A stretch of DNA of 63,161 nucleotides from Chloroflexota bacterium (GTDB lineage Bacteria > Chloroflexota > Anaerolineae > Anaerolineales > Villigracilaceae), in NCBI GenBank assembly GCA_024434165.1, contig QMIW01000009.1:1-63161 (forward strand), written 5' to 3'. Of the stretch, positions 1,614 through 28,287 are shown one piece after another. The translations under genes were made by a program, and so were the position numbers. How positions within the stretch are numbered: position 1 is the first letter of the stretch; each line of letters starts with the position of its first letter. The notes under the pieces were generated by a model. It worked only from the letters and a program-made list of their open reading frames with translations, ran no database searches and was not told where the DNA came from.

Positions 1614-4060
<2,447 letters not shown>

Positions 4061-4088: not shown

Positions 4089-4844
4089 TCAACTTTTGAG
4101 CTGGTCTACAAGGCTGCGCAGCCCCTTGGTTACCGGATGATCGGGGTAGTGCACCGAGAAAATACCCGAGCTGGCAAGGGTCATCATTTCGTCCGAGTGG
4201 GGCAGCACCGCGCCCACCGGCGCGCCGTAGGTCTGCTCCACACGGGTGCGTACGTCGTCGAAATCGAAGGTGCTGGGCGTCTTGTTGACCAGCATCAACA
4301 TCTTCGGCACGTCCAGTTTTTTGGCGACATCCACCGTCACCGCCGTGCCTTGATAGTCCTGCGAATCGGGGCGGAGGATGATGATCAGCGCGTTGGAAAT
4401 GGCGATGGAGAGCAACGTCTCCTCGTTCAAGCCGGGATGCGTATCAATCAGGAGGTAATCGAGCTTCATCTTTTCGATCACGTCGCGGAAGCCGTCGTTC
4501 AGCAAGCCGACATCATATCCCTCGCGCAAAATGCGGGCGATCTCGCCCGGTTTGATGCTGGAAGGGATGAGGAAAATCTGCCCTTTGATTTCCGCGCCGA
4601 CATGCCCGGTGACATCCTGCGCCGCCTCTTCGATGGAACACTTGCCCCACAGATAGTCGTTCAGGGAGTGCGCCATATCCGTTTCATCGAGGTTGAAGAG
4701 GACGTGAATGCCAGGCGAGTTGATATCCGTATCCACCACGCAGACCCGCGCGCCGTCCATCGCCAGAAGCGCAGCGATGTTGGCGGTTGTGTTCGATTTT
4801 CCCGTCCCGCCGCGGAACGAGTGAATTGATATGATTTTCGGCAT
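4089..4844 (-). CDS. MinD/ParA-like ATPase, first copy
   Basis: A 251-residue SIMIBI-class P-loop ATPase. The Walker A reads FRGGTGKS (residues 10-17), so the signature Lys of MinD/ParA proteins (KGGxGKS) is Arg here. Other motifs are DTDINSPG (switch I) and DTHPGLNEE (switch II). No C-terminal amphipathic membrane-targeting helix is seen, so it is unlikely to be the cell-division MinD. The start was placed at the ATG with GGAG 9 bases upstream rather than an earlier TTG. It is clearly paralogous to the ATPase at 10014-10796. Confidence 0.85.
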   Translation of the reverse strand: MPKIISIHSFRGGTGKSNTTANIAALLAMDGARVCVVDTDINSPGIHVLFNLDETDMAHSLNDYLWGKCSIEEAAQDVTGHVGAEIKGQIFLIPSSIKPGEIARILREGYDVGLLNDGFRDVIEKMKLDYLLIDTHPGLNEETLLSIAISNALIIILRPDSQDYQGTAVTVDVAKKLDVPKMLMLVNKTPSTFDFDDVRTRVEQTYGAPVGAVLPHSDEMMTLASSGIFSVHYPDHPVTKGLRSLVDQLKS

Positions 4845-5048: not shown

Positions 5049-5618
5049 ATGACAACCAAATTTATGAGTGACATCCCCAGCCCGCCCTTTCAGGAACCTG
5101 CCGATGAAGTGCTCATCCAGCAGTTCAGGTCCGGCAACCCCGATGCGTTCGACATTCTCTACCAGCGCCACCTCCCCAATGTGTACAAGCGGGTGAGATA
5201 CGTGGTGCCGGAGAGCGATGTGGAGGACGTGACGCAGGAAATTTTCATTGCGGCGCTGCGGTCCCTGCCGTCATTCCGCGGAGAATCCAAATTCGGGACC
5301 TGGCTGCGTACCTTGACCAATCACAAGGTCGCCGAGTTTTACCGCAAACGCACGCGCAAGCAGGAGCCCCTGCTCGCCCCGCTCTCCGAAGCCTCCACCC
5401 GTGAGACGGGCAGCACTCCCAGGGCGTTGGAGGAAAGGGTTTTCATACAACGCGCGCTCCAGCGCCTGCCCGAAAACTACCGCGAGATCATCCTGCTCCG
5501 TTTTGCCGAGGATCTCCAGTTCAACGAAATTGCCGAGCTTACCAGCCAGAACCTGGAAGCCACCAAATCCCTGTTTCGCCGAGCCATTGCCGCGCTTCGC
5601 ACTCATTTGGATAAATGA
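5049..5618 (+). CDS. ECF RNA polymerase sigma factor
   Basis: A 189-residue extracytoplasmic-function sigma factor. Region 2 is visible around residues 30-95 (DAFDILYQRH, DVTQEIFIAALRS, FGTWLRTLTNHK) and region 4 around 130-185 (LPENYREIILLRFAEDL, then a helix-turn-helix with EATKSLFRRAIAALR). A linker of about 30 residues joins them. It begins a two- to three-gene operon: its TGA at 5616-5618 is one base before the next ATG, as with sigma/anti-sigma pairs. No clear ribosome-binding site precedes the first ATG; a second ATG five codons in is possible. Confidence 0.92.
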   Translation: MTTKFMSDIPSPPFQEPADEVLIQQFRSGNPDAFDILYQRHLPNVYKRVRYVVPESDVEDVTQEIFIAALRSLPSFRGESKFGTWLRTLTNHKVAEFYRKRTRKQEPLLAPLSEASTRETGSTPRALEERVFIQRALQRLPENYREIILLRFAEDLQFNEIAELTSQNLEATKSLFRRAIAALRTHLDK

Positions 5619-5619
5619 C

Positions 5620-6087
5620 ATGAGTCAACATAACGAACATACCGACCCCAAGAAAGACGACCGCTTGGCGGATTTCACCAACCAGGTGCTGGATGGCAGA
5701 ACCCGGCAAACCGCATCCGGCGCGGACGAAGAGCTGCTCAGCCTCGAAAAAACGGTCCTCCGTTTGAGCGACGCCTTCCCTCCCAACCCGCTGACCGAAG
5801 CCGATGCCAAGCGGATGCTGGTGCGCTTCAAGGCGCGTTTGCGCCGCGAAGAAAAGACCGTCCAACCGTCCTTTTGGAAGCGCCTGTTCGATTTTCATGC
5901 AAACCCGCAGGTGGGCATGATCCTTGCGGCGGTGGTTGTGGTGGTTTTGCTCGTCCTCGGAGTTCCCGCGCTTCAGTCTGGAGGCTCATCCCTGCCCGGT
6001 GCGGCGTCATCCAACAGCGGTCTGTGGGTTGCGCTCAGCCTGCTGGGAATTCTGCTTATCGTTTATTGGTTTTCGCGCCGGAAGTGA
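5620..6087 (+). CDS. Membrane protein, putative anti-sigma partner
   Basis: A 155-residue protein starting one base after the sigma-factor stop. Residues 1-85 are charged and cytoplasmic in character; two hydrophobic helices follow (roughly 98-113 and 134-150), ending in a short basic tail (WFSRRK). This layout fits a membrane anti-sigma factor, but the HxxxCxxC zinc motif of the ZAS family is absent. The role is inferred from position. The downstream lipoprotein at 6147 may be the regulated output. Confidence 0.7.
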   Translation: MSQHNEHTDPKKDDRLADFTNQVLDGRTRQTASGADEELLSLEKTVLRLSDAFPPNPLTEADAKRMLVRFKARLRREEKTVQPSFWKRLFDFHANPQVGMILAAVVVVVLLVLGVPALQSGGSSLPGAASSNSGLWVALSLLGILLIVYWFSRRK

Positions 6088-6146: not shown

Positions 6147-7955
6147 ATGAACAAGTTTCCCAAAAGAAACTGGGGGAAAAACCTGTTCGTGCTGATCGCA
6201 TTATTGACCATCTTATCAATGCTGTTTTCAGCATGCGCGCCTTCGCAAGGGCTGGAAGGCGGCGCAGGCGGCAATAATGGTCAAGGCGGCGGTCAGGGCG
6301 GTGGACAAGGAGGGGGTGGTGGAGGCGGCGGTGGGGGCGGCGGAAACGATGGCGGCAACGGCGGCGGTAATGGGGGCGGCAATGGCGGCGGTGGCGGCAA
6401 CGGCGGCGGTAATGGCGGCGGCAACTCCGGCGGCGGAAACGATGGCGGCAACGGCGGCGGGGGTGGTAATGGGGACGGCGGAGGCGGTAGTGGTGGCGGC
6501 GGCAACTCCGGCGGTAGCGGTGGCGGCGGTAACTCCGGCGGCGGTGGAGGCGGTAACTCCGGCGGCGGTGGAGGCGGTAACTCCGGCGGCGGATCGAGCC
6601 AGCCGGGAACCGGCGACCCGAACACCCAAAATCCGAATAACGTGGACGTACGCGGTTCCAAGAAAGATCCGTCCGATCCATGCCTCGATCAGGGACAACT
6701 CCCCTGCGGTCAGGGCGATCACGGCAAGGGCAATCCTGTAAACGGCAGTCTGCATGCCAACTGCCGCGCCGCGCAGGGTGAAGTGGACCCGGTTTGCAAG
6801 CCTGAGGATATCCTTCCTCCTCCTCCCGATAATCCTCCTTCAAACCCAACCCCTGAAACTCCGGGCAATCCGCCAAACGATCCGCCCAAGGAGCCCCCGA
6901 CAATCGAGCCTCCCGTTCTTCCTCCTCCTCCCATCACGGAAGTGGAGCCCGCGCCCGAGGTCGAGCGCGATGCGAACGGCGTGCCTGCCTGCCCGAACTG
7001 GATTTTGTTCCACTCCTTCCGCTCCGGCAACCTGGATGTCTTCCGCCTCGATGGAATCGAAGGGACGGAGGGTCTCGAAGCCATCAACCTGAGCAGCGGC
7101 AGTACGACGGATTCACGTCCCAGCCGCTCGCTCAACGATGAATGGGTCGTGTTCCAAAGCGACCGCGACGGCAACGTCGAGTTGTACCTGGCAGACAGCA
7201 TGGGCAAATCCCAGAGCCGCCTGACAAAGACCAACTCCAACAACATCAATGCGATGTTCGCTCCCAACAGCCGGAACGTGGTCTATCAGAGCGACCGCAA
7301 CGGCAACTGGGATATCTTCCTGCTCAACAAAGACACCGGCGAAGACCTGCAGTTGACCTCGGACACCGCAGACGATGTCAACCCGTTCTTCTCGCCCGAT
7401 AACAACTGGATCACCTTCCAGTCCAACCGCACCGGCTCGTGGAACGTATTCATCTTCGACATCTCCACCGGCACGGAATACCAGGTGACCTCCTTCTCGA
7501 CCGACGTGCTCTTTCCGAGCTGGTCGCCGAACGGCAAACAGTTGGCGTTCTTCATCAACATGACCGGCACATGGGACCTGTACGTCTCCGACCTGAAGGG
7601 CGAATCCTTCAGCCGGATTTCCGTCGGCGGCGACGCCGGCAACGCGACCTGGTCGCCGGAAGGGAACCGCCTCGCCTACCAGCTGACGGTTGGCGGCAAC
7701 ACCGATATCTTCACCTACGACCTGGTCACCAACACCGAATACCAACTGACCGATTTCGGCGGCGTGGACTCGGCGCCCACCTGGAACTGCGGCGGCACGG
7801 ATGTGTCCTTCACCTCCACCCGCGACGGCGACCCGAACATCTACTCCACCTGGTGGCAGGGCGGCAGCGACATCTACGGCATCACTGTTCATCCCTCCAC
7901 CGACAAGTGGTCGCAGTGGTCTCCTTCCAAGGAACCCGGCTCGCGCGGCTACTAA
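6147..7955 (+). CDS. Gly-rich lipoprotein with TolB-like beta-propeller
   Basis: A 602-residue exported lipoprotein. A signal peptide ends in the lipobox LFSAC. Residues ~36-150 are almost pure Gly with Asn, Asp, Ser and Gln (GGN, GGGNSGG units). A Cys-containing segment (~165-215) and a Pro-rich linker (~220-275) lead into PD40/TolB-type repeats from ~290 to the end, seen as recurring F-x-S-x-R-x-G-x-x-[DE]-[LIV]-[FY] blades. The probable picture is a surface propeller on a long flexible stalk, binding an unknown ligand. AGGAG precedes the ATG. The glycine tract is encoded by a GGC/GGT-biased low-complexity stretch (about 6255-6600). Confidence 0.88.
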   Translation: MNKFPKRNWGKNLFVLIALLTILSMLFSACAPSQGLEGGAGGNNGQGGGQGGGQGGGGGGGGGGGGNDGGNGGGNGGGNGGGGGNGGGNGGGNSGGGNDGGNGGGGGNGDGGGGSGGGGNSGGSGGGGNSGGGGGGNSGGGGGGNSGGGSSQPGTGDPNTQNPNNVDVRGSKKDPSDPCLDQGQLPCGQGDHGKGNPVNGSLHANCRAAQGEVDPVCKPEDILPPPPDNPPSNPTPETPGNPPNDPPKEPPTIEPPVLPPPPITEVEPAPEVERDANGVPACPNWILFHSFRSGNLDVFRLDGIEGTEGLEAINLSSGSTTDSRPSRSLNDEWVVFQSDRDGNVELYLADSMGKSQSRLTKTNSNNINAMFAPNSRNVVYQSDRNGNWDIFLLNKDTGEDLQLTSDTADDVNPFFSPDNNWITFQSNRTGSWNVFIFDISTGTEYQVTSFSTDVLFPSWSPNGKQLAFFINMTGTWDLYVSDLKGESFSRISVGGDAGNATWSPEGNRLAYQLTVGGNTDIFTYDLVTNTEYQLTDFGGVDSAPTWNCGGTDVSFTSTRDGDPNIYSTWWQGGSDIYGITVHPSTDKWSQWSPSKEPGSRGY

Positions 7956-8144: not shown

Positions 8145-9266
8145 ATGATTTCGCCCATGATTCTTGCCGTCTCGATCCTCATCGCGTTGATCGTTCCCAT
8201 CGGCTTTCTGGTATTTTTGCGGACGTTCGACCTGCACAAGACCGCAAAATTTCGGAAAAATATCGTTACGCTTGTCTGTGGAATTATCGCTTATCTGCTG
8301 GCGGCGAGAATCAACCCGGCAATGGTCAACGCAGGCTGGGTGACATGGGACCAGGTGGTGCGGATCACCGCTCCCATGGTTGAAGAACTCCTGAAATCGC
8401 TGATCCTGCTCTATCTCGTCTCGCGTGCCGACTTCAACTACGTGGTGGACGGCGCGCTGTACGGCTTTGGCGCGGGAATCGGGTTTGCCGTCATCGAAAA
8501 CGTGGAGTACGTGGAAGGGAATATCGAGATTGCGCTCGTCGTCGCGCTGGCGCGTGTGTTTTCCACGAACCTGATGCACGCCACCGGCAGCGGGTTGATC
8601 GGCACGGCGCTGGCGTTCTCTCGCGGGGAAAAATCCAAATGGCGCGGCGGACTGGCGATTGTTGGCGGCTATGTGATCGCGATGGCTTTTCACGCTGCAT
8701 TCAATACCATGGTCAATGCGGGCACGTTCCTGGTCTTCGCCATCGGGTACGGCGTGGTGGGCGCGATCCTGATCTGGTTTGTCATTCGCCGCGGATTGAA
8801 TACCCAAAAGCAATGGGTGGGCGAGAAACTCGGCGCGGAGGACCGCGTCACAAAGGAAGAGACGCGCGCAGTGACGGGCATCGAAAAGGTCGTGGATACC
8901 CTGCTGCAGCCGTTTCGGGAGCGGTTCGGCGAGGAAAAGATCCCCCTGGTTCGAGACCTGCTTTACAAACAGGCGGAGATGGGCATCAAGCGAAAACTGA
9001 TGGAGACCACGCCCAGCCCCACGAAACGGAAGGAAATCGAAACCATCATTCAAACGCTTTATCGGGAAATGGAGGATTTGCGGAGGCGGATCGGCATGTA
9101 CCCGATGATGTTCGTGCGGGAGGTGTATCTCGGTCAGGATTTCCAGGTTTGGGCGATGATTCAATCCCGGGTTGCAGAATCAAGCACAGGTCAAAAAGGA
9201 GGCGGGCTCTTCGACCGGGTCAACGACCGGATCAGGGAAAAATCCATAAAGAAGGATGAGTCATGA
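8145..9266 (+). CDS. PrsW-family intramembrane protease
   Basis: A 373-residue polytopic membrane protein of the PrsW glutamic-protease family (CPBP-related). The family motifs are present: PMVEELLKS (Glu80-Glu81), FAVIENVEY (Glu118-Asn119), FSTNLMHATGSG (His145) and AMAFHAAFNT (His183). About seven membrane helices occupy residues 5-215; a soluble helical tail of ~155 residues follows, which is long for the family. PrsW of Bacillus cleaves an anti-sigma factor; here the target is unknown. The gene overlaps the next by 4 bp (ATGA), so translation is probably coupled. An ATG four codons later could be the true start. Confidence 0.87.
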   Translation: MISPMILAVSILIALIVPIGFLVFLRTFDLHKTAKFRKNIVTLVCGIIAYLLAARINPAMVNAGWVTWDQVVRITAPMVEELLKSLILLYLVSRADFNYVVDGALYGFGAGIGFAVIENVEYVEGNIEIALVVALARVFSTNLMHATGSGLIGTALAFSRGEKSKWRGGLAIVGGYVIAMAFHAAFNTMVNAGTFLVFAIGYGVVGAILIWFVIRRGLNTQKQWVGEKLGAEDRVTKEETRAVTGIEKVVDTLLQPFRERFGEEKIPLVRDLLYKQAEMGIKRKLMETTPSPTKRKEIETIIQTLYREMEDLRRRIGMYPMMFVREVYLGQDFQVWAMIQSRVAESSTGQKGGGLFDRVNDRIREKSIKKDES

Positions 9267-9997
9267 GCGAAGACGTCCTGAAACGACTTAGGAAAACCGT
9301 TTTTTTCGAGGAATTATCCGACGACGCGCTGGCGGCGGTGACCGCGGGAGCGTCGGTGCGGCGGTATGCAAAAGATGAGCCCATGCTGCGCAAGGGCGAT
9401 GCCGCCGATTCATTTTTTGTCATTCTCAACGGGCATGTCAAGATCGTCACGCAGGGCGCAAAAGGTGAGGAGATCATCATTAACATGGTGGGTCCCGGCG
9501 AGACGGTGGGGGAAATGTCGTTGATTGACGAACGCCCGCGCTCGGCGGGGGTGATTGCGCTGGAGGACGTGGAGGCGCTGGAACTGGATAAGGATGTGCT
9601 CTTCGCGCTGATGACCCAGCGCACCGATGTGACCCTCGGCATCCTGCGCGGGTATTCGACCCGCCTGCGCTTTTCCACCAAGTACATCGAAAAAGTGATT
9701 GACTGGTCGCAGAAGACCGCCGAGGGCGATTACTCATTCTTGGAGAATACCCAGCAGGTTGTGGAAAACGCCGGGTCCGACGACGACAAGGCGGCGCAGT
9801 TACTCTCCGCGTTCTTCTCGATGGTGACGAAGGTGAAGGCGCGCGAAGAGGGCTTGAAGCAGCAGTTGGAGCGGTTGACGATTCAGATTGACCAGGAACG
9901 CCGCAGGCGCGAGTTCGAGGAGATCACCGGCACGGAGTTTTATTCCCAGTTGAAGGCGCAGGCGAAGGCGCTCCGCCAGAAGCGCGAGCAGGGTTAA
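9263..9997 (+). CDS. Cyclic-nucleotide-binding protein with coiled-coil tail
   Basis: A 244-residue protein with a CAP-type cyclic-nucleotide-binding domain at about 10-125. The phosphate-binding cassette reads GEMSLIDERPRSA, with Glu84 and Arg93 in the ribose/phosphate positions, so binding looks competent. No DNA-binding helix-turn-helix follows. Instead residues ~185-244 form a charged coiled coil ending in IDQERRRREFEEITGTEF. The HAMP-GAF protein at 15177 ends with a closely similar tail. It sits between the PrsW protease (4-bp overlap) and the MinD-like ATPase, so it probably senses the product of the cyclase at 11553. Confidence 0.87.
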   Translation: MSEDVLKRLRKTVFFEELSDDALAAVTAGASVRRYAKDEPMLRKGDAADSFFVILNGHVKIVTQGAKGEEIIINMVGPGETVGEMSLIDERPRSAGVIALEDVEALELDKDVLFALMTQRTDVTLGILRGYSTRLRFSTKYIEKVIDWSQKTAEGDYSFLENTQQVVENAGSDDDKAAQLLSAFFSMVTKVKAREEGLKQQLERLTIQIDQERRRREFEEITGTEFYSQLKAQAKALRQKREQG

Positions 9998-10013
9998 TGC
10001 ACACGGAGGCATG

Positions 10014-10796
10014 ATGAAAGGAAAAATCGTATCAATCCATTCGTTTCGCGGGGGGACGGGCAAATCCAACGTCACCGCCAACCTTGCGGCGCAGGTCGCC
10101 ATGACCGGCAGGCGCGTGGGCGTGGTGGATACGGACATCCAGTCGCCCGGTATTCATGTGTTGTTCGGGCTGGATGAAGACAGGATGGGCAAGACCATGA
10201 ACGATTTCCTGCACGGCAAAGCCACCATTCGTGAGATCGGCTTTTCGGTGGGCGACCACACCGGCGGAGGCGAAGGACGCGCCAAACTGGCGGGGAAGAA
10301 TCTCTTTTTGTTTCCGTCCAGCATCAAGGGCGGCGAGATTAGTCAGATCATCCGCGAAGGGATTGATTTCAACCTGCTGAACGAAGGCTTGCAGACCACC
10401 ATCAAGGAATTCGACCTGGACTATCTTTTCATTGATACGCATCCGGGCTTGAACGAGGAGACCCTGCTTTCCATCGCCACGTCAGACGTGCTGATCATCC
10501 TCCTGCGCCCCGACAACCAGGACTTGCAGGGAACTTCTGTAACGGTGGACGTTGCCCGCAGCCTCGATGTGCCCAACCTGTTCCTGCTGGTGAACAAAGC
10601 CCTGCCCAAATACGATTTTGCCGAAATCAGGAAGGACATCGAAAACGAGTTCCAGGCGCCGGTCACGAGCGTCCTGCCGCTCACGTTCGATATGGCGGAT
10701 AACGCCAGTAAAGACCTGTTCTCGCTGCGCTTCCCTGAACACGAGTGGTCGAAAGCGTTGACGGGCGTGGTGGATTTTGTTCTCTCTGTGAAGTAG
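10014..10796 (+). CDS. MinD/ParA-like ATPase, second copy
   Basis: A 260-residue paralogue of the ATPase at 4089. Walker A is FRGGTGKS (residues 11-18), again with Arg in place of the signature Lys. DTDIQSPGIHVLFGLDED, PSSIKGGE and DTHPGLNEETLLSIA are shared almost word for word with the first copy. GGAGG at 10005-10009 leaves one base before the ATG at 10011 and four before the ATG at 10014; the second was taken. The gene is third in an operon with PrsW and the nucleotide-binding protein, suggesting that ATPase activity or localisation responds to a cyclic nucleotide. That link is inferred. Confidence 0.87.
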   Translation: MKGKIVSIHSFRGGTGKSNVTANLAAQVAMTGRRVGVVDTDIQSPGIHVLFGLDEDRMGKTMNDFLHGKATIREIGFSVGDHTGGGEGRAKLAGKNLFLFPSSIKGGEISQIIREGIDFNLLNEGLQTTIKEFDLDYLFIDTHPGLNEETLLSIATSDVLIILLRPDNQDLQGTSVTVDVARSLDVPNLFLLVNKALPKYDFAEIRKDIENEFQAPVTSVLPLTFDMADNASKDLFSLRFPEHEWSKALTGVVDFVLSVK

Positions 10797-10804
10797 AGGT
10801 TGAT

Positions 10805-11017
10805 ATGAAATGCTGGCACTGTGAAGAGGACGCGCGCGCCTCGTGCGCCTTTTGCGGGCGGTTCGTCTGCAAGGATCACGCCGCGACCATGTCCACGTTT
10901 ATTACGATGTTTGTGGGCGCGAATAACACCCCCAAGGGGCTGGCGGTGGCGAATGTCATCTGGTGCGGGGAATGCGAGCCGCAGCCCGAACCGATCAGCA
11001 TGCCTGAGTTGTACTGA
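10805..11017 (+). CDS. Small B-box-like zinc protein
   Basis: A 70-residue protein starting 8 bp after the MinD-like stop. Cys and His pairs (CWHC at residues 3-6, CAFC, CKDH, and CGEC near the end) resemble a B-box or zinc-ribbon fold binding one or two metal ions. The position between an ATPase gene and its small partner suggests a protein-protein adaptor. No further function can be read. Confidence 0.72.
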   Translation: MKCWHCEEDARASCAFCGRFVCKDHAATMSTFITMFVGANNTPKGLAVANVIWCGECEPQPEPISMPELY

Positions 11018-11030
11018 GAGCGAGGTCGCC

Positions 11031-11405
11031 ATGCCCGGAGTCTTTGATCGGCTGGATAAAGAGATAAAGGATAAGCAGAAAGAGGGCGGCATCACGCCCC
11101 TCGATCTCGCCGCCCTGCCGCCCGCCCTGCGGAAGATCATGCGCCTGATGCTGAGGGAGTTGCAGATGAACTACCCGCGCCTGTGCGAAGTGATGGATGC
11201 CATGCCCGAAGCCGAACGCCTCTCGCGGGACGAGCTGGATTCCGCCCTCGCCAACCTGACCGAACAATTCTGGCTTATCCGCATTGGGGAAGGCGCAAAA
11301 GCCGTCTACAAGGTGAACCTGCGCCGCAAGGAGGGAAGCAAACTCGCCGCGGGAATCTGGTCTGCCCTGGATGCGAAATTGAAGGGAAAACCGAAAGATA
11401 CGTGA
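11031..11405 (+). CDS. Small winged-helix-like partner, second copy
   Basis: A 124-residue soluble protein, last gene of the PrsW-MinD operon, 13 bp after the zinc protein. A charged N-terminal helix is followed by ITPLDLAALPPALRKIM, a helix-turn-helix-like centre (RLSRDELDSALANL), a strand pair (GEGAKAVYKVNLRRK) and the ending GIWSALDAKLK. It is a distant relative of the protein at 3725-4060 by motif order, and both accompany a MinD-like ATPase. Nucleic-acid binding is possible but unproven. The family is not one I can name. Confidence 0.65.
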   Translation: MPGVFDRLDKEIKDKQKEGGITPLDLAALPPALRKIMRLMLRELQMNYPRLCEVMDAMPEAERLSRDELDSALANLTEQFWLIRIGEGAKAVYKVNLRRKEGSKLAAGIWSALDAKLKGKPKDT

Positions 11406-11420
11406 TTTAATCGCTGATGT

Positions 11421-11500
11421 GACGCGGTGCCGCAAGATTTATCCTGCCCGTAAGAAGCGACATGAATCCCCTGTGGGGACAAGTTGTTGCGGTACTGCAA
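11421..11500. repeat. Folded intergenic repeat, copy B
   Basis: Same architecture and orientation as copy A. The outer stem is GTGCCGC (11427-11433) with GCGGTAC (11489-11495). Arm 1 is GATTTAT (11436-11442) with ATGAATC (11462-11468). Arm 2 is CCCC-TGT-GGGG (11468-11478), where copy A has CCTC-TGC-GAGG, so both sides of the stem changed together. It lies immediately downstream of the operon that copy A precedes. Confidence 0.75.
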
Positions 11501-11523
11501 AGTGTGTAAGGTGAGTTAATCAA

Positions 11524-11547
11524 TTACGCCGCAGTACTGCGGCGTAA
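11524..11547. terminator. Bidirectional terminator between converging genes
   Basis: A perfect 24-bp palindrome (TTACGCCGCAGT and its complement) between the plus-strand partner gene and the minus-strand cyclase. TTTTA follows on the plus side. Confidence 0.78.
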
Positions 11548-11552
11548 TGGTT

Positions 11553-13106
11553 TTATTCCTTCGGTTTTCGTCCGATCAGTTCGAACAAAGGCATGGGTTT
11601 GCTCTTGCCCTTGAGCGGGATTTCGCCGAGCGGCTTGCACTCGTATTTGGATTCAATCGCTTTTTGTATCCGTTCCGAAATGACGATCTGGTTCTTCTGC
11701 GCGAAGTTCATCAAACGCGCCGTCGTGTTGACCGTATCGCCCAGCACATTGTACTCGCGGCGTCCGCGCGGCTCGCCGATCTCCGCCACGAAGGTGGGAC
11801 CGGCGTTGATGCCGATCTGGCAGTAAATCTCCGGCTGGATGTTCCCGATGGTGGGCGGTTTCAGGTTTTGGATGATCTCGCGGATGGCAACCGCCGCCGA
11901 GGCGGCGCGCAGCTCGTCGTTCGTGTGTGCGTTCGGAACCCCGAAATAGATCACGATATCCGAGCCGGAGAGATGATACGTCACTTTTTTGAGCACGCCG
12001 CCTCGCGCTTCCACCGCCGCATTAATCAGGGAGAAGACGCGCGAAAAGTTCATGGCGAGTTTGCGCTCCTCGCCCGGCAATGCCCGGTCTGCGGATTCGG
12101 GCAGACCGATGAAGTTGACGAACATGATGGTCGGCTCAGGGAAATCCGCCGGGATTCTGCGGTCTGCCGCGCTCTCGATCAGCAGGGAGAGGACGGGGTC
12201 GGGGATGAAACTGGCGATGGGTTCGATGGCGTCGAGCAGGGTGACGATCTGGTTCAGCACCGCGGTCTTATCGCGTTCGATGACCACATTGCTTGCCATG
12301 CGCCGCCGCATCGGTGTGATCTCGTATTCGCCCAGTTGATTTTCCGTCAGGTCGTCCACCACTAGGTGGTAGCCCGGCTCCCCGTCTTCGAAGCGGAAGA
12401 GGTCCTTGACGATCTCGTACGCCTGCTCCGATAAATTGACGCGCTCGTTGCGTCCGCGGCTCTCCGTCAATTTGGCTTGCTGCACATCCCTGCCGAGCAG
12501 CACATGTTCCATGCGGCGCGGCGTGCCAATATCCGCCGTCAGAAACCTGCCGCTGTGAATGCCGATGCGCATCTTCAAATTGACGATGCCCGACGGCGTC
12601 TGGATTTCCGCAAAGTCCTTCATTGCCCGCTGCATCCGCAGCCCGGCGCGCACCGCCCGCAGGGTATCGTCGTTTCGTTCGCTTTTGGGGAAGACCACCA
12701 GCATCGCATCGCCGGTGAACTCCACCAGTTCGCCGCCCGATTTGCTGATGATGGAAATCATCGTGGAAAAGTAACGGGTCAATTCCCTGGTCAGGTTCTC
12801 TGCCCCTTCGCGTCCCTTCGATGCGTTGGCTTCCATCAATTTCGTAAACCCTGCCAGGTCGGTGAACATCATCGTCCCGTACTGCCACTCGGTCTTCACC
12901 TCCCCCGGTCTTAACTTTGCAATGTCAATCTGTCTTGAGGTGTAGTCGTGTAAAATTCGCTGCAGAGTTCGCAGGTGTTTGTGCACCTCGATCATAATGT
13001 CCACCGATGGGTTGCCCCACATGGACACATACAACTCGGCGGGGAGCAGGTATCGCAGGCGGCTTTCAATTGTGGTAAGTGGGGACTCGGGAAGCATAAG
13101 AGCCAT
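11553..13106 (-). CDS. Tandem class III nucleotide cyclase
   Basis: A 517-residue protein with two class III cyclase domains. Domain 1 (about 70-270) keeps both metal-binding Asp residues (Asp83 in MFTDLAGF, Asp133 in FTGDAML) but has Gln209 and Lys212 where Asn and Arg stabilise the transition state. Domain 2 (about 320-510) lacks the metal Asps (Asn331, Ser382) but has Asn460 and Arg464 in DTVNTTAR. The halves are complementary, as in mammalian C1/C2 cyclases, so one active site can be expected. The base-selecting residues are atypical, so ATP versus GTP is uncertain. No membrane segment is seen. The ATG at 13106 was preferred to an upstream TTG. Confidence 0.87.
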   Translation of the reverse strand: MALMLPESPLTTIESRLRYLLPAELYVSMWGNPSVDIMIEVHKHLRTLQRILHDYTSRQIDIAKLRPGEVKTEWQYGTMMFTDLAGFTKLMEANASKGREGAENLTRELTRYFSTMISIISKSGGELVEFTGDAMLVVFPKSERNDDTLRAVRAGLRMQRAMKDFAEIQTPSGIVNLKMRIGIHSGRFLTADIGTPRRMEHVLLGRDVQQAKLTESRGRNERVNLSEQAYEIVKDLFRFEDGEPGYHLVVDDLTENQLGEYEITPMRRRMASNVVIERDKTAVLNQIVTLLDAIEPIASFIPDPVLSLLIESAADRRIPADFPEPTIMFVNFIGLPESADRALPGEERKLAMNFSRVFSLINAAVEARGGVLKKVTYHLSGSDIVIYFGVPNAHTNDELRAASAAVAIREIIQNLKPPTIGNIQPEIYCQIGINAGPTFVAEIGEPRGRREYNVLGDTVNTTARLMNFAQKNQIVISERIQKAIESKYECKPLGEIPLKGKSKPMPLFELIGRKPKE

Positions 13107-13173
13107 TATACTTGAAGCGTATCCCGTTTCATGCAATCATGAAACCACAAAATATTTATCAGAGGAGAATAGT

Positions 13174-13902
13174 ATGCGATACAAAATTCGAGTTTGGCTT
13201 GGAGTGTGGCTGGCTGTTGTATTGATCCTTGCCGCGTGCGGCGGCGGGGAAAATACGACAGGAGACGGGTCCGAAGCGACGCCATCCAGCGGCGCTTCGG
13301 GCGCGGACCTCGCGCTTGATCCTGCCAACGCAAGCGGAGAGAACGCCCGGGCTGTGATCGGCTATCTTTACGAGGGGTTGTCGCGCATTCAGGACGATAT
13401 CGTCAACCTTGCTCTGGCTGAGAACGTGACCGTTTCGGAGGACGGACTGGATTACATATTCACCCTGCGCTCCGGCGTCGCCTTCCACGACGGCTCGACG
13501 CTCAACGCCGATGCGGTCGTCGCAAACTTCAACCGCTGGTTCGACCCGAACGACCCCAACCGCGGCTCCGGCGAGTTTGCCGCCTGGGTTGAAAACTTCG
13601 GCGGTTTCAAAGGCGAACTGAAGGAAGACGGCAAGCCGAAATCACATTTCGACGGCATCGAAAAAGTGGACGACCTCACCGTGCTTCTGCACCTGAACGC
13701 GCCCGACCCGGACCTGCTCAAGAAATTATCCGATCCCGCTTTTTCCATCGTCAGCCCCAGGGCTTTTGGCGGCGGCGATGGCGGGACGGGTCCGTATAAA
13801 TTCGTCTCGAGCGATGGCACGACCCTAACCCTTGAGCCGTTTGCCGGTTACTGGGACCCTGCCGCCATACCAGGCGAAGGGATGCAAATTCCCGCGCCTT
13901 AA
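13174..13902 (+). CDS. Truncated peptide-binding lipoprotein (SBP family 5)
   Basis: A 242-residue lipoprotein (lipobox LAAC) starting with a good ribosome-binding site (GAGGAG). The mature part matches the N-terminal half of oligopeptide-binding proteins such as OppA/DppA: YEGLSRI, LRSGVAFHDGSTLNADAVVANFNRW and TGPYKFVS. Full-length family members are ~500-550 residues; this one stops after GYWDP and a short unrelated tail. A strong terminator follows at once, so it is a C-terminal truncation rather than a missed frame. No permease genes are near. It may be a relic or a minimal sensor. Confidence 0.78.
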   Translation: MRYKIRVWLGVWLAVVLILAACGGGENTTGDGSEATPSSGASGADLALDPANASGENARAVIGYLYEGLSRIQDDIVNLALAENVTVSEDGLDYIFTLRSGVAFHDGSTLNADAVVANFNRWFDPNDPNRGSGEFAAWVENFGGFKGELKEDGKPKSHFDGIEKVDDLTVLLHLNAPDPDLLKKLSDPAFSIVSPRAFGGGDGGTGPYKFVSSDGTTLTLEPFAGYWDPAAIPGEGMQIPAP

Positions 13903-13916
13903 CCTTTTTGAAAATC

Positions 13917-13945
13917 AACAGGCTGCCGCACTGCGGCAGCCTGTT
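13917..13945. terminator. Bidirectional terminator
   Basis: A 14-bp perfect stem (AACAGGCTGCCGCA / TGCGGCAGCCTGTT) around a single central base, between the converging truncated binding protein and the propeller lipoprotein. No long T-run is present. Confidence 0.72.
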
Positions 13946-13950
13946 GTGAT

Positions 13951-15060
13951 TCATCTTGCCGTCCAAACCGGTTCGCCGTCGTAGCCCGGCGCGGCGGTGA
14001 TCTGCGTAAACTCGCCGGTTGGAATCAACGCTGAAAACAATTCCATATCCCCGTTGAACCGGGCTTGGAAGACGAGCCGCAGTCCATCCGGCGACCAGGA
14101 AGGCGCGCCGCGCGGTTCGATGCCCGGCGCAGAGAGCAGCAGGGTGGCGCCGTTTGTGACGTTGAAGAGTTGGATGCCGGTCTCTTCGTAGTTGGCGGCG
14201 ATCCAGTTGCCGTCTGGCGACCAGACCGGGACGCCGTAATTCGCAGGCGCAGATGTGAGACAGCGCTGATTGAGTCCGTCGCGCCCGATTACGCACACGT
14301 TGGAAAGTTCGCCGGAGAAGGTTTGGAAGGCGATCATGGCTCCGCTTGGCGACCAGCTTGGGGCGTTGTCGGGAGCGGGGCTCGTCGTCAGCGTGGAGAG
14401 AGCCCCATTGAGACCGACCAGCATCAAGTCCGAGTTGCCGAAGCGCCCTGTGACGAAGACGATCTCGTCCGCCATCGGCGACCAGACGGGGTGGCTGTCC
14501 CCTGCCTGGTCGTTCGTCAGGCGGATCGGATTGGAGCCGTCGGCATTGGCGGCGTAAATTTCAAAGTTCCCATCGCGGAAGGATTCAAACGCAATGCGCT
14601 GCCCGTCCGGCGACCAGCTTGGAGCGGCATCCTTTTCGAGCGCGTCGGTCATGCGGGTGATGACTCCCGAAGCGAGGTCGAGGATGTAAACGTCCATGTT
14701 GTTCCCGACGGTCGAGACGAACGCCGCCCGCGTTCCATCCGGCGAGAGGCGCGGCGCGGAATCCTCCGAAGCGTTCGCGGTGAGGCGGATGACTTCGATG
14801 CCGTCCGGCGCGGTCAGGTAGAGGTTCTTTGCGCCTTCGCGGTCTGAAACGAAGAGGATGTGACCGGCGGCGGGCGGAATGGGGGTGAGGGTTGGGGGTG
14901 CGGTTTCCGCTGCGCTGGTTTGAGTTTGAGCGGCTGCCGCAGTTTCCGTTTGCTGACCCGCCGCGCCTATCACGGGGATCGAATTTGTGTCGGTGCAGGC
15001 GGCAATTGCCGCTGCTGCAAGCAGGGCGGGCGCAAGGAGGAAATATATTTGTTTTTTCAA
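13951..15060 (-). CDS. TolB-like propeller lipoprotein
   Basis: A 369-residue lipoprotein: signal peptide with lipobox IAAC, a Thr/Ala/Pro-rich spacer to about 65, then six PD40-type blades. Each carries a variant of W-S-P-D-G-x-x-[IL]-[AV]-F followed by [NQ]-[IV]-[FY], for example APSWSPDGQRIAFES and APSWSPSGAMIAFQT. Such propellers bind other envelope proteins or small ligands; the partner is unknown. It resembles the propeller half of the lipoprotein at 6147 but lacks the glycine stalk. Confidence 0.87.
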   Translation of the reverse strand: MKKQIYFLLAPALLAAAAIAACTDTNSIPVIGAAGQQTETAAAAQTQTSAAETAPPTLTPIPPAAGHILFVSDREGAKNLYLTAPDGIEVIRLTANASEDSAPRLSPDGTRAAFVSTVGNNMDVYILDLASGVITRMTDALEKDAAPSWSPDGQRIAFESFRDGNFEIYAANADGSNPIRLTNDQAGDSHPVWSPMADEIVFVTGRFGNSDLMLVGLNGALSTLTTSPAPDNAPSWSPSGAMIAFQTFSGELSNVCVIGRDGLNQRCLTSAPANYGVPVWSPDGNWIAANYEETGIQLFNVTNGATLLLSAPGIEPRGAPSWSPDGLRLVFQARFNGDMELFSALIPTGEFTQITAAPGYDGEPVWTAR

Positions 15061-15176
15061 GAGATTTCTCGCAGGGTTATGAGTGGCTGATAATTGAATA
15101 CCCGTATCTTTAGTGGGGAATTCACGCCCAAAAGGGTTAGGGTTGGGTTTGCAGTTTTGAAAGATTCCCCGCGCGG

Positions 15177-16076
15177 TTATTTCTGTATCCTGGAGCGCAT
15201 ATCCTTTGCCTTGTCCTGCAGGTCCCTGAAGAACTTTGTTTCGGTGATCTCCGCCACCTGGCGTTCGCGGCGCGACTGGTCAATCACGATTTTGAGTTTG
15301 GCGATCTCCTGCCGCAGTTCCTCTTCGCGGATGTAGCCGTCCAGCGCGGCGGTGGCGAGCAGGATCAACGCTTCGAGCGCGTCGTCGTCGGTGAAGGCGA
15401 TGGTCAAGCCGTCCTTGCGGTTCTTGGCGTTGATCAATTGCAAGACGCCGATTACTTCCTCGTCCGTGTTCTTGAGCGGAATGGTCAGGAAGGATTTCGA
15501 GCGATAGCCGGTGCGCGCGTCGAAGGCTTTCGTACCGGAGAAGTCGAAGCCTTCGGCTTCGTAGGCGTCCACGATGTTGACGCGCTGTTTGGTCAATGCG
15601 GCGTATGAGACCACGTTGGCGCGGTTCTCGCTCCCGTCCTTGTTATGCAGCCGTACCGGGTAAAACTCGATTGGGTTTCCGCTCGTGCCGCCCATTCGCA
15701 GGTTCAATGACTTGTTGCGCAGGATCACGAACTTGAGCGCGTCGTTCTCCAAAAGATAGAGCGTGCCCGCATCCGCATTCGTGAAGGACTGCGCCTCGAT
15801 CACCAGCGTTTCGAGCAGGCGGTTGAAATCCTTTTCGGCGGAGAGGGAAACGCCGATGGGGATGACTCTCTTCAACAGTTTCAACTGGGTGTCGCGCAGC
15901 GAGACGGCGGTCGCAAGCGCATCCAATGTGCGCGCCAGCTGACCCAGCTCGCCCGAGTCTTTTGCCAGGTCGCTCAGCAGGTCGGAATGATATTCCCCTT
16001 TTTCGATTGCGTTGACTGCGTTCATGATTCGCTTGAGCGGCGAACCGGAACTGATGATTGTCGCGTTTGATGACAT
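15177..16076 (-). CDS. HAMP-GAF protein with shared coiled-coil tail
   Basis: A 299-residue cytoplasmic protein. Residues 10-70 look like a HAMP-type linker (PLKRIMNAVNAIEKGEY...DLLSDLAKDSGELGQLARTL). A GAF domain follows at about 80-245 (DAGTLYLLEND, SFLTIPLKNTDEEVIGVLQLIN). The last ~45 residues are a coiled coil containing IVIDQSRRERQVAEITETKF, strikingly like the end of the nucleotide-binding protein at 9263. It has no kinase, cyclase or phosphodiesterase output, so it probably acts by protein contact. The ATG at 16076 was chosen because the frame upstream is not protein-like and AGAGG abuts the ATG. Confidence 0.8.
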   Translation of the reverse strand: MSSNATIISSGSPLKRIMNAVNAIEKGEYHSDLLSDLAKDSGELGQLARTLDALATAVSLRDTQLKLLKRVIPIGVSLSAEKDFNRLLETLVIEAQSFTNADAGTLYLLENDALKFVILRNKSLNLRMGGTSGNPIEFYPVRLHNKDGSENRANVVSYAALTKQRVNIVDAYEAEGFDFSGTKAFDARTGYRSKSFLTIPLKNTDEEVIGVLQLINAKNRKDGLTIAFTDDDALEALILLATAALDGYIREEELRQEIAKLKIVIDQSRRERQVAEITETKFFRDLQDKAKDMRSRIQK

Positions 16077-28093: not shown

Positions 28094-28193
28094 GGCTCTC
28101 CTAAATATACAACAGGACAGGGGCGGCCCGTCTTGAACAATCGAAAACGATGGCTCATCATGAAGGACCGCCCCTGCGTTTCAATTGCGTAGG

Positions 28194-28287
28194 CGAGAGT
28201 GGATGGGAGTCGAACCCACCGCGACCCGCAACGCGACCCGCCACAGGTTTTGAAGACCAGGAAGCCCACCGGGACTTAACCACTCCC
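28194..28287 (-). tRNA. selC: tRNA-Sec (anticodon UCA)
   Basis: Read on the minus strand this folds as a selenocysteine tRNA: an 8-bp acceptor (GGGAGTGG / CCACTCTC), a 6-bp D stem with a 4-base loop (AAGTCC-CGGT-GGGCTT), anticodon loop CTTCAAA with TCA, a long extra arm built from two GCGGGTCGC words, and a T arm (GTGGG-TTCGACT-CCCAT). The discriminator is G. CC follows but the final A is not encoded. It implies selenoprotein synthesis in this organism; none of the selA, selB or selD genes is in the window. Confidence 0.92.

Follow-up and report, generated by a model that had tools for sequence, protein, structure and literature searches.

Contig QMIW01000009.1 of a Chloroflexota bacterium assigned to the Villigracilaceae (assembly GCA_024434165.1), of which positions 1 to 63,161 were analysed (this 63,161-nucleotide stretch is referred to as the window), carries a compact gene run in which a cyclic-nucleotide-binding (CNB) protein is encoded directly upstream of a MinD-like ATPase. 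The question raised by this locus is what ties its sensory proteins to that ATPase. The answer proposed here, to which we assign a probability of roughly 0.6, is that the locus represents one instance of a signalling system with three core components: sensors which end in a common C-terminal segment (the tail), a MinD-like ATPase of a distinctive kind and a small partner with a winged-helix fold. The predicted components of this system within the window are the following.

9263 to 9997, forward strand: sensor protein with a CNB domain, a HAMP-like region and the tail (Pfam cNMP_binding, 1e-24)
9860 to 9994, forward strand: tail at the C terminus of the CNB protein, common to positions 15180-15311 and to a protein on contig C40 of the same genome
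15177 to 16076, reverse strand: HAMP - GAF - tail sensor protein (Pfam GAF, 3e-10; HAMP, 3e-5, at 24.9 bits against a cut-off of 25)
15180 to 15311, reverse strand: tail at the C terminus of the HAMP-GAF protein, recognized by similarity to the tail of the CNB protein
10011 to 10796, forward strand: MinD-like ATPase A, with the motif HSFRGGTGKSN, DTDIQSPGIHVLF (Pfam AAA_31/ParA/CbiA, 5e-16 to 2e-12)
11031 to 11405, forward strand: winged-helix partner A, assigned by predicted structure, structure comparison and profile searches
4089 to 4844, reverse strand: MinD-like ATPase B, a paralogue of A (58% identity), which adjoins LigA in same-genus genomes
3725 to 4060, reverse strand: winged-helix partner B, placed in the family of partner A by converging profile searches

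The tail comprises 44 residues in two predicted helices, with the consensus L.IEID..KR..VAEITETDYFQ.LQ.KA..LR. Over its final 45 residues, the CNB protein shares 44% identity with the C terminus of the HAMP-GAF protein and 39% with that of a Cache-HAMP protein encoded on contig C40 (E values of 2e-5 and 3e-5), with no third match reported at E values up to 10. A profile of the tail (A2), applied to the 1192 reading frames of the window, matched only the CNB and HAMP-GAF proteins, and the best E value obtained for 3940 shuffled tails, which served as a control, was 0.089. This common element, which was overlooked in the preliminary description of the locus, was found in 241 frames of the collected loci, corresponding to 197 frames distinct by C terminus and to 90 clusters at 60% identity. 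It lies within 15 residues of the C terminus in 162 of the 197 and more than 90 residues inside the protein in 15. The conserved columns are L6 (90%), I8 (69%), I10 (88%), D11 (97%), V19 (75%), E21 (77%), I22 (93%), T23 (70%), F28 (79%), L31 (96%), A35 (83%) and R39 (94%), and the mean charge is -0.9 across the first 22 residues and +2.5 across the last 20 (159 near-complete tails located near the C terminus). In searches with the 90 cluster representatives, the tail itself was described by none of the 25 Pfam and 25 NCBIfam models listed per search.

The domains which precede the tail are diverse. Pfam searches of the 90 representatives returned HAMP (46), cNMP_binding (17), dCache_1 (16), GAF (15) and CHASE2 (10) and, more rarely, Response_reg (7), PAS (6), Tll0287-like (5) and HisKA (3), and the NCBIfam families most common among them are mostly those of sensor kinases, accompanied by a chemoreceptor and the phosphatase SiaA. 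As the tail follows a HAMP, CNB, Cache, GAF, CHASE2, receiver or PAS domain, at the position usually occupied by a kinase or cyclase, these proteins are sensors in which the tail replaces the output domain; no HisKA or HATPase output was detected by Pfam in the two sensors of the window. Their succession of input, HAMP or stalk helix and output is that of HAMP-based histidine kinases, chemoreceptors and cyclases, but the output of the tail proteins would consist of a 44-residue segment lacking a catalytic or DNA-binding domain and would be assigned to a separate ATPase.

For the CNB protein of the window, the stretch between CNB domain and tail aligns with the HAMP regions of other tail proteins at an hhalign probability of 97.8%, as against 2.8% for GAF ends and no local match for reversed HAMP, and its HAMP-like character derives solely from this profile comparison, the Pfam HAMP model giving no match to the protein even at an E value of 1. 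The phosphate-binding cassette of CNB domains has the motif G-E...R, and its G, E and R are present in all 48 CNB-tail homologues that entered the count (of the 55 rows in the alignment, 7 scored weakly for the CNB domain and were left out); with these cassette residues, the domain is a putative cyclic-nucleotide binder. The earlier statement that this protein has no DNA-binding domain agrees with our Pfam and NCBIfam searches, in which no such domain and no CRP/FNR-type helix-turn-helix model was matched. A CRP-type regulator was thus ruled out, the C-terminal part being HAMP-like and followed by the tail. Cyclic nucleotide is one of many inputs to the proposed system, of which the tail is the common element and the ATPase the hub.

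The variety of these sensors also bears on an alternative whereby the tail would mark the sensors as cargo, to be placed or gathered into clusters by the ATPase, much like cytoplasmic chemoreceptor clusters by PpfA and carboxysomes by McdA. Passages of PMC10241942 describe ParA/MinD ATPases as typically placing cargo via diverse partners, the TlpT/PpfA and McdB/McdA pairs are named in the PomX paper (PMC7993993), and the membrane-type sensor domains (Cache, CHASE2) of many tail proteins would fit polar or patch clustering. Such a tag is rather doubtful, however, as the location of the tail directly behind a HAMP or stalk helix, in the place of an output domain, suggests conformational signalling, and the CNB domain, present in 17 of the 90 representatives, likewise tells against it. 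PpfA and TlpT resemble the present case in that a ParA/MinD-type ATPase is linked to sensory proteins (PMC7993993), but theirs is a single positioning partner, as opposed to a tail common to many sensor types.

The ATPase which the proposed system would share among its sensors belongs to a subfamily marked by the P-loop motif HSFRGGTGKSN (RGGTGKS) and by DTDIQSPGIH. Among 89 non-redundant members, G16 is conserved in 89, K17 in 87, D39 in 89 and the Walker B residue D141 in 89, so that the P-loop GxxGK(S/T) and the Walker B aspartates which define the ParA/MinD family are present. In that family a signature lysine precedes the P-loop glycines (KGGxGK); it is replaced by arginine in 85 of the 89 members, a conservative change with which the fold family is still matched. 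The MinD structure 1hyq of the PDB matches the ATPase at an E value of 4e-25, and the curated MinD cut-offs are missed (minD_bact, 46.9 of 212.9 bits; minD_arch, 70.7 of 201.75 bits). Judged by such comparisons, it clearly belongs to the MinD fold family and does not appear to represent septum-site MinD proper. On the ATPase profile (A1), ordinary MinD/ParA proteins score 1e-16 at best (in eight re-tested genomes without a member) and members recovered in the survey 1e-40 or better, and the subfamily is therefore separable from ordinary MinD/ParA. Some genomes harbor tandem ATPase genes (L039:10691-12254, L195, L201-L204 and L206), one copy of which is divergent (35-39% to the window ATPases in L039), and in some members RRGxGK stands in place of RGGTGK (L045, L046), the second residue being R in 10 of 89.

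CpaE/TadZ consists of a receiver domain fused to a MinD-type ATPase, in a single protein for pilus placement. A signal-type domain is joined to a MinD-type ATPase there as well, but in one fused protein, whereas many separate sensors would here address one ATPase type via the tail.

Co-occurrence of tail and ATPase was surveyed with profiles A2 (E values up to 1e-3) and A1 (up to 1e-30). In 251 Chloroflexota genomes, drawn evenly, the tail is present in 31 and the ATPase in 32, with 31 sharing both and 219 holding neither; for 194 genomes of the cyanobacterial phylum, the corresponding numbers are 29, 30, 29 and 164. Fisher's test on these 445 genomes gives a p value of about 1e-72, which ignores relatedness. 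Among 61 relatives, in which the ATPase was sought by a single query (E value up to 1e-20), 34 hold the ATPase and 37 the tail (G000 and 36 of the remaining 60), 34 both, three the tail only and 24 neither. A renewed search by profile of the three tail-only relatives (G017, G020 and G031) and of five of the 24 recovered only ordinary MinD/ParA proteins in these eight; most of the other relatives with neither element were seen by single query only. As six genomes belong to both Chloroflexota samples, the union amounts to 306 + 194 = 500 genomes, of which 90 hold both, two the ATPase only, three the tail only and 405 neither; close relatives are over-represented in this union, and its centre genomes, G000 and G316, were chosen as positives.

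At least five genomes of the window's own family (f1) in the phylum sample are without both, among them G154, which shares its genus with G122, where both are present. A further 27 cyanobacterial genomes all hold the tail; picked for the ATPase, they constitute no test, and the 194 already include two of them (G316 and G319). Mere hitchhiking is not a sufficient explanation, because the tail genes and the ATPase are located on separate contigs in some genomes (e.g., G501, G301 and G119). Co-encoding and co-inheritance with the ATPase, by which ATPase-activating proteins are recognized, are thus displayed by the tail proteins.

Physical linkage was assessed in 80 loci found via the ATPase alone, which are the best 80 of 587 matches (52 Chloroflexota and 28 cyanobacterial loci, many of them cut by contig ends). 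A tail protein is encoded within 2 kb of the ATPase in 45 of the 52 Chloroflexota loci and a winged-helix protein in all 52. A tail gene directly upstream of the ATPase gene and on the same strand was observed in 81 non-redundant cases, the gap being 30 bases or less in 51 (the count was drawn from 249 ATPase frames, copies included). Natural fusions join the same elements. L100 encodes a CNB-tail-MinD fusion of 506 residues, the model of which, based on alignment A5 (14 CNB and 3 ATPase rows), places the CNB domain before helices at 114-146 and 150-160 and a long helix (166-213) running into the tail, followed by a kink at 214-215 in the conserved TET, a helix at 216-241 and the ATPase, whose parts at 290-369 are of low confidence. 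Four MinD-winged-helix fusions (L106, L112, L124 and L132) comprise an A1-matched ATPase and, in frame, a winged-helix domain, the ATPase parts of three of them being distant members (E values of 1e-42 to 1e-53).

The elements are also found on plasmids. In Rhizobium jaguaris, a plasmid-encoded ATPase of 50% identity is preceded by a 153-residue tail frame which ends at the ATPase start; on a plasmid of Deinococcus sp. KNUC1210, the gene for an ATPase of 48% identity is followed, within one cluster, by those for a winged-helix protein and for two proteins with the tail, and a Nostoc plasmid (L251) encodes a tail protein near the ATPase. The ATPase encoded on Streptomyces plasmids is more distant (35%; five records, one examined) and lies beside STAS, anti-sigma and SpoIIE genes. 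Plasmid relatives in Deinococcus (L250), Streptomyces (L253) and Nostoc (L254) cluster with STAS or anti-sigma-antagonist genes, as well as with AGE epimerase and glycogen debranching genes, and with SpoIIE in the former two, hinting at a partner-switching or stress link. On the plasmids of Nostoc (L251) and Pseudanabaena (L252), genes for CNB proteins and for NHLP/Nif11 peptides or lanthipeptides are found near that of the ATPase.

The third element, the protein encoded at 11031-11405, returned no match in a Pfam search. Its AlphaFold model has the topology H-H-H-E-H-H-E-E-H and is of modest confidence (mean predicted local distance difference test score [pLDDT] of 68); within these limits, it contains the H1-S1-H2-H3-S2-S3 order that defines winged helices. 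The top Foldseek rows are mostly winged-helix regulators (E values of 0.017 or worse), and VIA-align gave Z scores up to 9.4 (root mean square deviation of 2.7 over 74 residues), its top rows being mostly proteins with known winged helices. Because many different winged helices tie in these structure comparisons, no function is indicated for the partner. Profile searches initiated from partner A and from partner B converge on one family, with 171 frames in the collected loci. A threshold of 1e-10 was chosen for its survey, as general winged-helix matches blur the result at 1e-4 (44 of 251 and 54 of 194 genomes); below 1e-10, the family was found in 21 of the 251 Chloroflexota genomes, all ATPase-positive, and in 11 of the 194 cyanobacterial-phylum genomes, nine of them ATPase-positive, the hit in two of these nine (G501 and G343) being a domain within a WD40-repeat protein and not a separate partner. 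In cyanobacteria, the winged-helix domain is fused to long WD40-repeat proteins (L255:627-3791, which also carries a TIR domain, and L258:3445-6546), where it may act as an adaptor domain.

The fold itself invites the suggestion of a gene-regulatory switch, in which the winged-helix protein would bind DNA and be loaded under the control of the tail-driven ATPase, in the manner of partition ATPases and their centromere-binding proteins of winged-helix fold. The partner has a fold similar to that of DNA-binding winged helices, the centromere-binding protein AspA ranks among the top Foldseek hits (a weak one, with an E value of 0.018), and the MinD-winged-helix fusions are in keeping with this view, but equally good structural matches include the winged helices of cullins, which bind proteins. 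Such a switch, which would be compatible with the proposed signalling system as its output step, is a tentative possibility.

From the gene content, tail sharing, co-occurrence, adjacency and fusions observed, we infer the binding, direction, chemistry and output of the tail-ATPase pathway as follows. A ligand or stimulus (for the CNB protein a cyclic nucleotide, for the GAF protein one of whatever kind) would alter the helix packing of the HAMP domain or stalk, and this shift would expose or hide the C-terminal tail, the second half of which is basic. The tail would then bind the ATP-bound MinD-type dimer and stimulate or block hydrolysis, as the basic segments of modular ParA/MinD activators do, and the state of the ATPase would in turn control the winged-helix partner. 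In passages of PMC7993993 and PMC10241942, ParA/MinD ATPase-activating proteins are described as modular, with short basic-rich segments which are N-terminal and disordered. The resemblance to ParA/MinD with MinE, ParB, PomX or McdB, as portrayed there, lies in a MinD-fold ATPase and a basic segment grafted onto different domains; the present tail differs in being C-terminal, predicted helical, homologous across sensor architectures and carried by signal-input domains, and the ATPase in its lysine-to-arginine change. It may accordingly be regarded as a C-terminal, helical variant of an ATPase-activating segment, attached to sensors.

Several observations weigh against this scheme. The tail occurs without the ATPase in G017 (78% complete), G020 (89%) and G031 (95%), where it sits in a 114-residue open frame, and the ATPase without a detected tail in G241 (80% complete) and G418 (a weak member, with an E value of 3e-49). 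Since A2 was built from the tails of ATPase-positive genomes, diverged tails in ATPase-negative genomes could have been missed. Of the 28 cyanobacterial loci, only 15 have the tail at a distance of 2 kb or less from the ATPase, and three of six plasmid regions around the ATPase (Pseudanabaena L252, Streptomyces L253 and Nostoc L254; about 12.7 kb each) contain no tail. Nor is the winged-helix family universal, being matched below 1e-10 in 21 of the 32 ATPase-positive Chloroflexota genomes and lying near the ATPase in only 13 of the 28 cyanobacterial loci; it is also present in two ATPase-negative cyanobacteria (G524 and G391) and inside WD40-repeat proteins. The L100 fusion model, of moderate confidence (pLDDT of 72; predicted template modelling score of 0.56), yields no interface measure. 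As the tail matched no solved structure at an E value of 1 or better, there is no sequence link to known activating segments, and its basic segment is C-terminal and predicted helical where those are N-terminal and disordered.

The remaining genes of the locus are the following.

8145 to 9266, forward strand: PrsW-type intramembrane protease with a cytosolic C-terminal region (Pfam PrsW-protease, 5e-25)
10805 to 11017, forward strand: 70-residue cysteine-rich zinc protein, with metal binding predicted from the Cys/His pattern CxxC...CxxCGR.VC..H...CG.C.PQPEP..MPE
11553 to 13097, reverse strand: class III nucleotide cyclase with two catalytic-type domains in one chain, C1/C2-like (Pfam Guanylate_cyc, 4e-36, in two stretches)
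5049 to 5618, forward strand: extracytoplasmic function (ECF)-type sigma factor between ATPase B and PrsW (Pfam Sigma70_r2, 3e-15; r4_2, 4e-10), in the same place in same-genus genomes
5620 to 6087, forward strand: small membrane protein after the sigma factor, a possible anti-sigma factor by its position and hydrophobic stretch only

The description of a five-gene run was borne out: the PrsW, CNB, ATPase, zinc and winged-helix genes are open frames on one strand which span 3.3 kb, with a 4-base overlap between PrsW and CNB and then gaps of 13, 8 and 13 bases, and Pfam backs the first three. The nearby cyclase (11553-13097, reverse) and HAMP-GAF protein (15177-16076, reverse) were likewise recovered by Pfam, and the comparison of gene order in relatives, which it had suggested, revealed a conserved signalling gene set across Chloroflexota loci. 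It had overlooked the second ATPase (4089-4844) with its winged-helix protein (3725-4060), a pair separated from the main run by the ECF-type sigma gene and the small membrane protein gene. Pfam searches of the zinc protein and of the small membrane protein gave no family above cut-off. Encoded between the latter and PrsW (6147-7955) is a lipoprotein-like protein in which a stretch of great length, rich in Gly and Asn, precedes a PD40/TolB-like propeller, and a relative of this protein lies near PrsW in several same-genus genomes; elsewhere in the window, a selenocysteine tRNA gene is predicted at 28192-28287, close to tRNA-Pro.

Of the 52 Chloroflexota loci, 40 encode PrsW and 35 the cyclase no more than 2 kb from the ATPase; for the 28 cyanobacterial loci, the corresponding numbers are 0 and 2. 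A zinc protein homologue is found in 50 and none, respectively, and 23 of the 52 have an ECF-type sigma gene at most 5 kb from the ATPase. The recurrence of PrsW, cyclase and zinc protein, and of the tail and winged-helix proteins, across the 52 loci argues that the gene clustering in the window is not due to chance. The first three of these are additions to the core, seen chiefly in Chloroflexota.

These counts are pertinent to the interpretation first offered, in which cyclic nucleotide, PrsW and sigma factor would form one pathway and the CNB protein would specifically regulate the ATPase or the protease. PrsW, CNB protein, sigma factor and ATPase are indeed kept together in many Chloroflexota, with the PrsW and sigma genes no more than 3 kb apart in 21 of the 52 loci. 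Cyanobacterial loci, however, hold ATPase and tail without a detected PrsW (0 of 28), many of the sensors are not CNB proteins, and L047 and L048, of the same genus, keep PrsW, ATPase and winged-helix genes with no CNB gene between. Because PrsW was undetected in the 28 cyanobacterial loci and the sigma gene is present in only part of the Chloroflexota loci, PrsW/sigma was ruled out as the core of the system, and a pathway of this kind is improbable. The conserved signalling set thus survives from that interpretation, and the cyclic nucleotide as central input and PrsW/sigma as core do not. The Pfam PrsW-protease domain is matched at 88.6 bits (cut-off, 23.5), and the NCBIfam PrsW equivalog cut-off is missed (39.4 of 225 bits). 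Since an anti-sigma factor is a known substrate of PrsW, the protease and the sigma factor could plausibly serve as a local output in the Chloroflexota branch of the window; there, the cyclase would supply the nucleotide signal, and PrsW, along with the sigma factor and the small membrane protein encoded close by, would form one possible output of the system.

In class III cyclases, the catalytic residues are two metal-binding aspartates and a transition-state Asn/Arg pair, and animal adenylate cyclases distribute them over a C1/C2 arrangement. In an alignment of 13 sequences (11 from Chloroflexota and two from cyanobacteria), taken from 77 homologous frames, domain 1 carries the two metal aspartates and domain 2 the transition-state Asn and Arg; at the purine-selecting places, compared by eye, His and Asn stand where adenylate cyclases have Lys and Asp. 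Three longer neighbours in other loci are cyclase-AAA_16 proteins, two of them with TPR, and L071:10848-13217 represents a natural CNB-(HAMP-like)-cyclase fusion, which suggests a direct nucleotide feedback on the cyclase.

A class III cyclase near a CNB protein is also the arrangement of Pycsar, and a Pycsar-type anti-phage or conflict system of cyclase and nucleotide-binding effector was accordingly considered. In PADLOC, the cyclase scores 1.7e-28 with the PycC models and the CNB protein 3e-14 with the PycTIR/effector models, but these matches span general cyclase and CNB domains, and no transmembrane, TIR or other effector domain was matched by Pfam on the CNB protein. Relatives of the winged-helix partner reside in WD40-repeat proteins, one of them with a TIR domain, and a survey of conflict systems (PMC7159879) describes MinD/ParA-like effector domains for which inactivity is predicted; in the present ATPase, by contrast, both the P-loop and the Walker B residues are intact. 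Moreover, synteny is stable across the genus and beyond, in a chromosomal setting. Since no effector was matched, Pycsar-type defence was ruled out, and we consider it highly improbable.

No description of the tail, or of its pairing with the ATPase, was found among the papers listed by searches of the open-licence PubMed Central literature. On balance, we lean toward regarding the system as a new class of bacterial signalling, in which interchangeable sensors converge through one homologous tail on a shared MinD-type ATPase that would integrate their inputs and drive a winged-helix output, in Chloroflexota, in Cyanobacteria and on plasmids of Rhizobium and Deinococcus. Assembled from parts of known families, and with its mechanism as deduced above, it would be new in kind beside kinases, cyclases, chemoreceptors and partner switching. 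Many ParA/MinD ATPases are described, in a passage of PMC10241942, as "orphans" without known partners; the present subfamily gains a predicted partner code, the 44-residue tail, that is readable from sequence. If the tail controls the ATPase, roughly two hundred kinase- or chemoreceptor-like sensors devoid of an output would gain one, and the role of a MinD-type ATPase as a signalling hub would become directly testable.

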